64,000 bases of DNA from positions 62,001 to 126,000 of the forward strand of contig JAGXIT010000004.1 in NCBI GenBank assembly GCA_024635495.1, written 5' to 3'. The stretch comes from Candidatus Saccharimonadota bacterium (GTDB lineage Bacteria; Patescibacteriota; Saccharimonadia; Saccharimonadales; UBA4665). The notes beneath the pieces were generated by a model. It saw nothing but the letters and a program-made list of their open reading frames with translations, had not been told where the DNA came from and ran no database searches. Each line of letters starts with the position of its first letter. Positions within the stretch are counted from its first letter, which is position 1. A program made the translations under genes and the position numbers. Positions 3,761-6,878 of this stretch are shown piece after piece.

Positions 3761-4771
3761 ATGGACACAGAACTAACACCCGCAATCGACGAACTTCAAA
3801 AAGAAGCCGACAACTATCAAGAAACCGACGTATTCGCCTGGGCGAACAACCTCGTACAGTACAAAGATGAGCTGAAGCTTGAGCTATTTTTCATTAGCAA
3901 GAACTACGTGCTGTATCGCACTGCACTGGCTGAGAGCATCAAGAAGCAGCTAGAGCCGCTCTTCATCGACGAGATGTTGGATTATGTACTCGACGGAGCA
4001 GACAAGGGTCTCATCGTCCGTGGTTTCGAAGAGGCGGAGGCGGAAACTGGCGTTCTACAGCGCACACAAGTATTCAAGGTAGAAAAACTGCGCGAAACCC
4101 TCGGTTGGCTCAAGACCCAAGAGCGAGAGATCGTGACATTCAAAGAAGAAGAGCACGACATCAATCATATGAAGGGCGTGCTCGTGCGTGTTTCTCACGC
4201 CGAGATGAAGAAGCCATTTTACATCGCAAAAGTACTGCCGAAGTCACAGGTCATGAAGGGCAAGCAGGGCTGGATGCTGCGCAGCGATAAGTTTGTACCA
4301 TTTGACGCTGAGGCGGCATTGCGACTTGGCGCCGACCCGCAACTGCTCGTTGTCGACCAGGACTTGTATGTCTTCAGCCAGACAAAGCTCAAGAGTCTCT
4401 TCGGCTACGATGCAAAGGAAGCAGCTATTGCTGAATCCAAAATTCGCGAAATCGAAGCTGCCTATAATCTTAGCTTTACCGAAGGTGTGGGTATGCAGGC
4501 ACTGCTCAAGGGCAAAAAAGCACTTATCAAGAAGCTACAGAAGCTCGACGTCGGCAAAGTCACGCAGGCAAAAGCACTTGAGTACGCCGAAGATATGGAT
4601 TTGGAATTGATGCCAGATGGTGATGGCAGAATCATCATCATGGACGAGAAGGACCTCTCTACTTTCGTGAATATCATCAATGAAGATTACTGGGAGTCAC
4701 CGCTGACGGGTGAACGATACGAGATATTGTCTAAGCGGCCGCTTCGACAGCGTGAAGGTGAAGAGATTTAG
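3761..4771 (+). CDS. DUF4868 / Kiwa KwaB-like protein
   Basis: 336 aa; C-terminal FVNIINEDYWESPLTGERYEILSKRPL resembles the DUF4868/KwaB C-terminal signature; no KwaA-like small multi-TM gene adjacent. Confidence 0.6.
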   Translation: MDTELTPAIDELQKEADNYQETDVFAWANNLVQYKDELKLELFFISKNYVLYRTALAESIKKQLEPLFIDEMLDYVLDGADKGLIVRGFEEAEAETGVLQRTQVFKVEKLRETLGWLKTQEREIVTFKEEEHDINHMKGVLVRVSHAEMKKPFYIAKVLPKSQVMKGKQGWMLRSDKFVPFDAEAALRLGADPQLLVVDQDLYVFSQTKLKSLFGYDAKEAAIAESKIREIEAAYNLSFTEGVGMQALLKGKKALIKKLQKLDVGKVTQAKALEYAEDMDLELMPDGDGRIIIMDEKDLSTFVNIINEDYWESPLTGERYEILSKRPLRQREGEEI

Positions 4772-4773
4772 TC

Positions 4774-5030
4774 TTACTTTTGGCATTGTAGAATCTCATT
4801 AATTCTAATAATCTTCTCTTTTTGCCGACAAAAGAGAAGCAGAAAACCTCGGTACACTTCCAGTGCCTTGGTAAAATGTTGGTAGCAAATACAATCGCCA
4901 CTCGAGAGAACGCGAGATGGCTTGATAGATTGTATGTGGCTACAACATTTTAACCAGGGCACCTCCTGAGTACCCAAACTTGCTCCCGACATTCTATCTA
5001 CCACCAACTATCTCCCATCCACCCCCGAAT
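4774..5030 (+). ncRNA. Structured intergenic RNA element, copy 1
   Basis: 40-nt block (4807-4846) identical to copy 2 at 6634-6673, containing 10-bp hairpin CTTCTCTTTT-TGCCGAC-AAAAGAGAAG; followed by a ~98-nt imperfect hairpin 4864-4961. Confidence 0.65.
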
Positions 5031-5077
5031 AAACTACAACGGACGCCACAGCGGTTTGCGGGTATAATTTCAGGTAG

Positions 5078-6592
5078 ATGAGACAGCAACAAGCATTACG
5101 AGTCATGATGGAAGGGAAATCAGTCTTTTTAACTGGTGCGCCTGGTGCAGGGAAGACCTATGTGCTGAATGAATTTATCCGACTCGTTAAAGCGCGTGGC
5201 AAAAACGTTGCCGTCACAGCCAGTACCGGCATTGCTGCAACCCATATCAACGGCACAACGATTCATAGCTGGTCGGGGCTTGGCATCATGGATGTTCTAT
5301 CGGAGCATGACCTCGCTCGCCTGAGCGGTAAGTCAGTGCTCATCAAGCGATACAATGCCACTGATATCTTGATAGTAGACGAAGTATCAATGCTCCACGG
5401 TCGCCGACTCGATATGGTGAATCTGCTCGCGAAACGTATCCGTCAAAATGACGCGCCGTTTGGCGGTATGCAAGTGGTGTTGGTCGGTGATTTATTCCAA
5501 CTTCCGCCAGTCTCACGCTATGGTGAGGTGGTTGATTTTGCCCACTTGTCCGATGCATGGGCAGAGCTCGATCCAGTTGTATGCTACCTGACAGAACAGC
5601 ACCGTGTTATGGCAGGGGACGCACTTCTCGACCTCCTACAAGCTATGCGCAAAGGTGATATAAATGAGATGCACGAGACTGCTCTACAAGAACGATTACA
5701 GCGTGAAGCCGGCGCTGACGAGGTCGTTACGCGGCTCTATTCACACAATGCCGATGTCGATGTTATCAATCAGAAGCATTTGGATGCCATAGATTCCGAA
5801 CAAAAAATGTATACAATGTTTATGACAGGGGCACAAGCTAAGCGCGAACAACTTGCCAAGAACGTCCTCGCACCAGAAGCCCTAGTACTCAAGAAGGGTG
5901 CTGAGGTGATGTTTGTTGCAAATAACTTCGCTGGGGGCTATGTGAATGGTACCCGTGGCACGGTAATTGATTTCGACGGCAGTAACCCAATCGTAGTCAC
6001 AAGTAGCGGGCGAGAGATTAAGGTCGAAGCGCATAGCTGGAAGCTCGAAGAAGATGGCCGCGTGAAAGCTGAAGTCTCACAATTACCATTACGCCTTGCG
6101 TGGGCCATCACAATTCACAAGAGTCAGGGCATGAGCCTGGATGCGGCAGTCATCGACCTCAGTCGTAGTTTCAGTCCGGGCATGGGCTACGTCGCACTCA
6201 GCCGAGTCCGCAGCATGGATGGCATTTACCTGCGCGGAGTGAATCAGATGGCTCTCACGATGCACCCACTTATTTTTGCCTATGATCAGGAGTTACACGA
6301 AGCGTCCGAGGACCTAGCAAAGCAGATCGATGACTACACCGAGGACACAGCAGCCACTGATGTCCAGCGAGCACTCAATAATGTCATACTCGACAAGCTC
6401 AAAGCCTGGCGGACTGTTGCTGCTAAATCACAGCAGATGCCACCCTATATCATTGCCCACGATACTGTGCTTACAGAGCTTGCGACTCGACGCCCGCAAA
6501 CTACACAGGGTTTGCTCGCGGTAAAAGGAATGGGGCAGGCTAAGATTGAGAAGTATGGTGATGCTCTCCTCGCAATCCTCAAAGAAGATTAG
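5078..6592 (+). CDS. Pif1/RecD2-like superfamily 1 helicase with C-terminal HRDC domain
   Basis: Walker A LTGAPGAGKTYVLNEF, DEVSMLHGRRLDMVN, AITIHKSQGMSLDAAVIDL; C-term LLAVKGMGQAKIEKYGDALLAIL (HRDC-like). Confidence 0.85.
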   Translation: MRQQQALRVMMEGKSVFLTGAPGAGKTYVLNEFIRLVKARGKNVAVTASTGIAATHINGTTIHSWSGLGIMDVLSEHDLARLSGKSVLIKRYNATDILIVDEVSMLHGRRLDMVNLLAKRIRQNDAPFGGMQVVLVGDLFQLPPVSRYGEVVDFAHLSDAWAELDPVVCYLTEQHRVMAGDALLDLLQAMRKGDINEMHETALQERLQREAGADEVVTRLYSHNADVDVINQKHLDAIDSEQKMYTMFMTGAQAKREQLAKNVLAPEALVLKKGAEVMFVANNFAGGYVNGTRGTVIDFDGSNPIVVTSSGREIKVEAHSWKLEEDGRVKAEVSQLPLRLAWAITIHKSQGMSLDAAVIDLSRSFSPGMGYVALSRVRSMDGIYLRGVNQMALTMHPLIFAYDQELHEASEDLAKQIDDYTEDTAATDVQRALNNVILDKLKAWRTVAAKSQQMPPYIIAHDTVLTELATRRPQTTQGLLAVKGMGQAKIEKYGDALLAILKED

Positions 6593-6599
6593 TACAAAT

Positions 6600-6860
6600 C
6601 TCACTTTTGGCATCGTAGAATCTCTTTACATCAAATAATCTTCTCTTTTTGCCGACAAAAGAGAAGCAGAAAAACTCGGCACACTTCCATCTGCTCGGTA
6701 AGTGTTGTGGCTCAGCACAATGCGAAAACACTGCCACGTCGCATTATCGCGGGTATTGTGCTGAGCCACAACACTCAGACCGAGCTGATTCCAGGGTACC
6801 CATCAAGACAATCTCGAAAATTCATCTACCATCTACCATCTACTATCTTCCATCTCCCTC
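6600..6860 (+). ncRNA. Structured intergenic RNA element, copy 2
   Basis: Same conserved 5' block and P1 hairpin as copy 1; perfect 20-bp stem GTGTTGTGGCTCAGCACAAT / ATTGTGCTGAGCCACAACAC (6702-6721/6755-6774) plus GCTCGGT/ACCGAGC closing helix. Confidence 0.65.
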
Positions 6861-6878
6861 CAGCTGTATACTACTGGT

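Follow-up and report, generated by a model that had tools for sequence, protein, structure and literature searches.

Background

The closest described systems to the elements reported here are intergenic repeats and structured RNA-like elements of bacteria. REP sequences and their BIME and REPIN arrangements (PMC3116915, PMC2817692) are multicopy, intergenic and non-autonomous, and are recognised as folded single strands that occur in inverted pairs; each REP is a palindrome of 20-40 bp, and the tagged palindrome flanks the gene for its transposase-like protein (RAYT). MITEs and the ERIC-, NEMIS- and RUP-type repeats are small, dispersed, non-coding and intergenic, with a patchy distribution across species. 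The BRE repeat of Bordetella is a betaproteobacterial repeat of ~90 bp with a GC content of 69% that is often tandem (VNTR-like), is dispersed between genes with signs of mobility and lies partly in the region of an expressed sRNA (PMC3110155). HEARO, the omegaRNA of IscB, is structured and RNA-like, is distributed much as a transposon would be and in many cases is not accompanied by an ORF; HEARO and its enzymes have been described (PMC9755519).

Many of these traits recur in the family described below, which departs from each system. The element is about 165-215 nt long and consists of several helices and a pseudoknot, compared with the 20-40 bp of a REP palindrome and the ~90 bp of BRE, the latter being compared by description and not by sequence. 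RAYT loci here carry other repeats. The two ends of the element (the 5' hairpin P1 and the 3' strand of helix P2) are unrelated, so terminal inverted repeats of the MITE kind are absent, and one fold is kept across phyla, unlike in MITEs and ERIC-, NEMIS- or RUP-type repeats. Unlike HEARO, it has no IscB, IsrB or TnpB gene among the 25 most frequent Pfam matches of each flanking protein set, and no match to the Rfam HEARO family. The element behaves as a REPIN- or MITE-like repeat that is structured and non-autonomous, yet it lacks the defining REP/RAYT, MITE terminal repeat, attC, omegaRNA and riboswitch features that were tested. In the open PMC literature, no description was identifiable with it, and an older description from a single species is possible.

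Two structured elements around a pif1 gene

The window is the whole 64,000-nt stretch that was analysed (G000:C5:62001-126000), part of an 820-kb Saccharibacteria genome in 5 contigs. Its two elements lie on the forward strand among genes for a KwaB-like ORF, a Pif1/HRDC helicase and a NYN-domain protein. Copy 1 (core at 4813-4976, apex type I) is located between the KwaB-like ORF and pif1, and copy 2 (core at 6640-6802, apex type II) between pif1 and the NYN gene. Using R1, a covariance model made from 11 sequences, the copies score 164.9 bits (copy 1, from which R1 was partly built) and 146.9 bits (copy 2). Relative to dinucleotide shuffles, the folds of copies 1 and 2 have z values of -6.1 and -6.6.

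An earlier note on this DNA had reported a 40-nt block common to both copies (4807-4846 and 6634-6673), and this was confirmed at those coordinates; the 10-bp hairpin, the common upstream and downstream blocks, and the arms that have diverged while still pairing were likewise found as it described them. The direct repeat as a whole extends over 4772-4874 and 6599-6701, with an identity of 87%.

In copy 1, the P1 hairpin (4813-4839) reads CTTCTCTTTT-TGCCGAC-AAAAGAGAAG, and its loop bases CCGA (4825-4828) pair with TCGG of the linker (4849-4852) to form a pseudoknot spanning 4825-4852, in which the linker TCGG shares its last bases with the first two bases of P2. The long hairpin that follows (4851-4974), delimited by folding and by the pair counts of P2 to P5, consists of P2 (4851-4855/4970-4974), P3 (4863-4872/4953-4962), P4 (4873-4881/4943-4951), P5 (4889-4896/4928-4935) and the apex (4897-4927). 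Read directly, the P1 hairpin of copy 2 (6640-6666) has the same sequence as that of copy 1, and its long hairpin (6678-6800) is built from P2 (6678-6682/6796-6800, one mismatch), P3 (6693-6699/6779-6785), a 21-bp stem (6701-6721/6755-6775) and the apex (6722-6754).

The stretch 5' of P1 in copy 1 (4772-4812) resembles 6599-6639. Within the copy 1 upstream stretch, TAGAAT-CTCATTA-ATTCTA forms a small hairpin and may be the counterpart of an upstream hairpin seen in other copies. A GC-rich hairpin (e.g. TTCCGGCTTTAGCCGGA) abuts the 5' side of P1 in many copies (L017, L020, L061, L069) and is possibly an additional domain; over all copies, the excess of folding upstream is moderate (mean z of -1.15, versus -0.73 downstream).

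The KwaB-like protein itself is encoded at window positions 3761-4771 (Pfam 1e-7, PADLOC 9e-12), and no adjoining KwaA-like gene was noticed. A homologue in a related genome (G005) is 86% identical and is likewise followed by an element.

Conserved fold and pseudoknot

Across copies, the parts follow one order. P1 is followed by a linker that begins with CAGAAAA or CAAAA and then by P2 (GGYAC/GTRCC, GGCCA/TGGCC). Next comes an internal loop whose two sides both carry TTCC, then P3 (CTTGG/CCAGG), P4 (GTTG/CAAC) and P5 (ACAAC/GTTGT), and finally an apex of several types. The apical motif AACTC-hairpin-TCAAACA is carried by some or many of the sibling copies; the window copies have other apex types.

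In an alignment of 58 copies fitted to the covariance model, two-sided changes occupy 434 cells versus 138±10 after shuffling, and paired cells make up 89.4%, a share that is 71.1% after shuffling and 37-47% when the alignment is slid. Every one of the 10 pairs of P1 shows two-sided changes, with 95.8% of its cells paired. Because fitting an alignment to a structure biases it in favour of that structure, the safer test is an unfitted MAFFT alignment of 11 sequences, which has 17 two-sided pairs (8.4 when shuffled) and 86.7% of cells paired (48% at most when slid). The earlier note had argued for selection on RNA structure from two copies, and the wider alignment that it named as a refuting test gave strong covariation rather than none; the conserved fold, with covariation in both the 11- and the 58-sequence alignments, supports selection on single-strand structure.

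The pairing of the P1 loop with the linker had not been noticed previously. In other copies it is formed by different bases (CTTGAA/TTCAAG, CTTGAT/ATCAAG, GACCG/CGGTC, TGGCC/GGCCA). Among the Saccharibacteria copies, loop/linker complementarity is 10.46, compared with 8.77±0.24 when loops and linkers are re-paired among copies at random; these shuffles keep the relatedness among copies, so the result is to be read as support and not as a probability. The element is defined by its folded single strand and not by its sequence, that is, by P1, a back-pairing linker, a long compound hairpin and an apical module. Such complexity resembles that of an RNA, as do the pseudoknot and the unpaired motifs that are conserved; a single-stranded DNA that folds in the manner of attC sites or IS200-type ends could give a similar pattern.

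Hairpins that conserve structure while varying in sequence, with a variable apex, are what integron attC sites would show, and copies 1 and 2 are direct repeats around pif1 as if flanking a cassette. By inspection, however, the GTTRRRY/RYYYAAC ends are absent from all 58 aligned Saccharibacteria copies, and because these defining ends are missing the attC reading is effectively excluded, which leaves it with a very small probability. The pseudoknotted 5' hairpin also speaks against it, as do the other copies, which are single or tail-to-tail, beside unrelated genes and on either strand.

Copies in the genome and in Saccharibacteria relatives

What had been taken for a duplication is larger. 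A BLAST search of its own genome with copy 1 recovered four copies beyond copy 2, and the search with R1 brought the total to at least 8, at unrelated loci, including a tail-to-tail pair at C5:9457-9880, 5' of parA. In the covariance model search of relatives that had been suggested, 93 genomes of the taxonomic family yielded 13 carriers, with 1 to ~16 copies each, and 198 genomes sampled from the order yielded 20. Carrier and non-carrier genomes are intermixed, and one member of the same genus is without any copy. Saccharibacteria copies occur on either strand, singly or tail-to-tail, between unrelated genes, which lends no support to a special role of the pif1 context.

Rfam 15, searched at gathering thresholds and at relaxed E values, gave no match over the window elements or over those of 8 Saccharibacteria loci (E ≤ 5), nor over elements from other phyla (18 and 8 loci); the earlier suggestion that no known family applies therefore holds for Rfam. 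A sub-threshold match to V_AS5 in Rheinheimera (L170:7716-7896; 30 bits, cut-off 96) was set aside, since it falls outside the element, on a different intergenic stretch of that locus that also folds.

A riboswitch or other 5' leader was rejected. The boxes TATAAT (5063-5068) and TATACT (6866-6871) closely precede the ATG codons at 5078 and 6879, as had been noted, and these -10-like sequences lie between each element and the gene downstream. Over 59 copies, the downstream gene is co-oriented in about half (29:30) and the functions are unrelated, in agreement with the earlier view that the copies are probably not 5'UTRs of pif1 or the NYN gene.

The upstream gene is co-oriented with the element in 44 of 58 Saccharibacteria cases (44:14, p = 1e-4). 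A pure parasite need not show this bias, and it counts against the reading of the elements as mobile repeats. It favours the main rival, a functional noncoding RNA family under selection, in which copies would be transcribed alone or as the processed 3'UTR of the upstream gene, the pseudoknotted fold would bind a protein or protect mRNA 3' ends, and spread would occur by duplication and horizontal transfer. The RNA-like architecture, the pseudoknot, the conserved single-stranded motifs and the strong covariation are all in keeping with it. The earlier proposal of independent RNAs gains no support from the promoter signal 5' of the P1 hairpin, which is at chance level with no enrichment over 58 copies (6.62 versus 6.62±0.13 shuffled). 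This bears on the whole noncoding RNA reading, as do the unbiased orientation in the other-phylum set described below, the patchiness, and the up to ~90 motif copies per genome, which would be odd for a housekeeping RNA. We regard a noncoding RNA family as possible, with odds clearly below even.

Occurrence in other phyla

Motifs like AACTC-hairpin-TCAAACA are familiar from other bacteria, which served as a lead only. A pattern in which the 3' arm of P1 is joined to the apical motif, with 24 fixed bases and two gaps, was run over GTDB species genomes and matched at least 119 stretches, where ~2 were expected by a rough estimate from base counts. The matches listed fall in Bacteroidota (Filimonas, Chitinophaga, Oceanihabitans, Wenyingzhuangia, Tannerella) and Pseudomonadota (Gallionella, Silvimonas, Methylophilus, Aggregatibacter, Actinobacillus, Rheinheimera), among others, and also in Desulfobacterota, Campylobacterota, Bacillota, Gastranaerophilales and Patescibacteria; named at other ranks, the carriers include Desulfobacterales, Arcobacter, Phascolarctobacterium, Chitinivibrionales and Parcubacteria. 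A Calothrix match looks like a chance match. Many carriers are MAGs, in which binning errors are possible, and several are isolates.

The folds in other phyla have their parts in the same order as in Saccharibacteria. Over 94 distinct other-phylum elements, loop/linker pairing scores 12.23 and the stem enclosing the apical motif 15.7, compared with 9.36±0.21 and 9.34±0.27, respectively, after shuffling. One Saccharibacteria element (in G050), which R1 scores at 70 bits, agrees with the cross-phylum pattern in every letter and so joins the two sets. In the other-phylum loci R1 itself gives weak scores, mostly at the pattern sites; built on Saccharibacteria, it is too narrow to count elements across phyla. 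Since the apex types of the window copies differ, their tie to other phyla runs via R1 and their siblings.

The upstream gene shows no orientation bias in the other-phylum set (57 versus 46), and divergent promoter gaps are the rarest class in the broad set (10 of 82).

In Oceanihabitans sediminis, a tandem array occupies L145:5113-7627, with units of ~550-640 bp that each hold one element and a CCCCTCTTTAGCTAAAGAGGGG hairpin. The listing of motif sites suggests that the array extends beyond this stretch.

Signs of mobility and of long residence

Copy numbers were compared with those of a reversed pattern. For the P1 motif, Filimonas has 92 sites (reversed pattern, 7), Silvimonas 16 (3) and Aggregatibacter kilianii 10 (0). 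Three dispersed copies in A. kilianii are 95-98% identical with diverging flanks, the similarity ending 5' of P1 and ~180-195 nt 3' of the motif. A tail-to-tail pair of this species is absent at the orthologous gap of a congener (Aggregatibacter G121), and copy 2 of the window is absent from the pif1-NYN gap of G005 and has a counterpart in G003. The close pairs on opposite strands that were found comprise 7 tail-to-tail and 0 head-to-head cases. In the empty orthologous gaps (G005, Aggregatibacter G121), the flanks are too diverged for the element ends to be read, and the divergence of related species' flanks likewise accounts for the lack of a clean empty site with a target duplication; the plasmid records searched held no strain-level empty sites.

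Other sites are kept. The gap adjoining atpC holds an element in G000, in G005 and in a member of a different genus (G054), and the gaps adjoining metK, a sortase gene and the kwaB-like gene also hold one in G005. Sites common to species and genera fit long-term residence and possibly function, and their persistence despite differing sequence is a further point for a noncoding RNA. At the sortase, atpC and metK gaps, one apex type is found in G000 (L004, L005, L002) and another in G005 (L014, L020, L019), and two copies from separate G000 loci share 98% identity. The uniformity of the apex within a species suggests concerted evolution or repeated insertion in the same gaps.

A phage origin was rejected, with no match in phages or E. 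coli and 0 and 1 matches in viral contigs.

The earlier note had named a MITE as an alternative. Dispersal, patchiness, identities of up to 98% and presence/absence at orthologous gaps agree with this, and the missing terminal inverted repeats do not; a mobile origin now looks more likely than it did there, in a non-classical form.

Interpretation

With a probability of roughly 0.55, we read the window elements as members of a widespread, non-autonomous and mobile family of intergenic repeats defined by structure. The family is multicopy, pseudoknotted and spread across phyla in patches, and has near-identical dispersed copies that are present or absent at orthologous gaps. The evidence speaks against a riboswitch, a classical MITE, an attC site and a RAYT/REP element.

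For such a mobile repeat, the folded strand would be either RNA or single-stranded DNA exposed at replication. An enzyme acting in trans would take this strand as its substrate and copy or move it into intergenic DNA, so that the fold would be selected during propagation of the element. Insertions into promoters would be purged, and copies already in place may, as a secondary effect, stabilise or terminate adjacent transcripts.

We would go further only tentatively, to a new class of mobile element in many phyla, a pseudoknotted unit of RNA or single-stranded DNA that carries no gene of its own and is served by an enzyme in trans; we consider this doubtful. If true, such a class would be a bacterial counterpart of the protein-less, structure-borne retroelements. 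An element that is absent from Rfam, pseudoknotted and present in many phyla would rank among the most widely shared bacterial repeat families, and it raises the question of which enzyme or RNA-binding protein reads the fold. A defined model for that question is provided by the fold, its motifs and its carriers, among them Filimonas (~90 motif copies) and the cultured Aggregatibacter, Actinobacillus and Silvimonas. A caution also follows for small genomes, where a long, structured candidate RNA between genes may belong to a dispersed repeat family.

Candidate partner enzymes

Among 206 flanking proteins (two sets of 103), judged on the 25 most frequent Pfam matches of each set, no gene family is shared as a neighbour, and none of nucleases, recombinases or reverse transcriptases appears repeatedly beside the elements. 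This bears on the idea that the element is the RNA component of a system guided or templated by RNA (HEARO/omegaRNA-, bridge-RNA- or retron-like) whose copies are mostly orphans. HEARO RNAs are of comparable size, with a multibranch fold, a pseudoknot and many copies without protein, as is the case here. Against it stand the lack of such an enzyme family among these frequent matches of the flanking proteins and the lack of any Rfam match, HEARO included, over the elements; we consider it improbable, marginally more so than a RAYT target.

RAYT genes (Y1 family) are enriched in element-positive Saccharibacteria (9 of 13 versus 5 of 80, p = 1e-6) and, outside the genus, in 3 of 7 carriers versus 4 of 79 genomes (p = 0.01). 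The element could then be a target or passenger of RAYT, an oversized REP or REPIN, and its tail-to-tail pairs resemble REPINs. The association in Saccharibacteria is confounded by ancestry, however, and of 12 carriers searched for a Y1 domain 7 lack it, namely five multicopy genomes of other phyla (Gallionella, Silvimonas, Oceanihabitans, Phascolarctobacterium, Novimethylophilus) together with G022 and G023. On inspection of 21 RAYT loci, the readable flanks hold short palindromes of their own and in no case the element. RAYT was rejected as the helper on these two grounds, its own flanking repeats and its absence from many carriers, and a RAYT target is unlikely.

The repeats flanking RAYT are short near-palindromes (e.g. 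TCTATGGGTCCGTCCTATAGA, AGGACTGTCCT) that vary by species. In the genome of the window, the RAYT (Y1_Tnp) gene (L023:1512-2129; G000:C1:63712) adjoins recA, and the setting is apparently similar in several relatives (L213-L232). The recA-adjoining RAYT is possibly domesticated, with target repeats that change fast.
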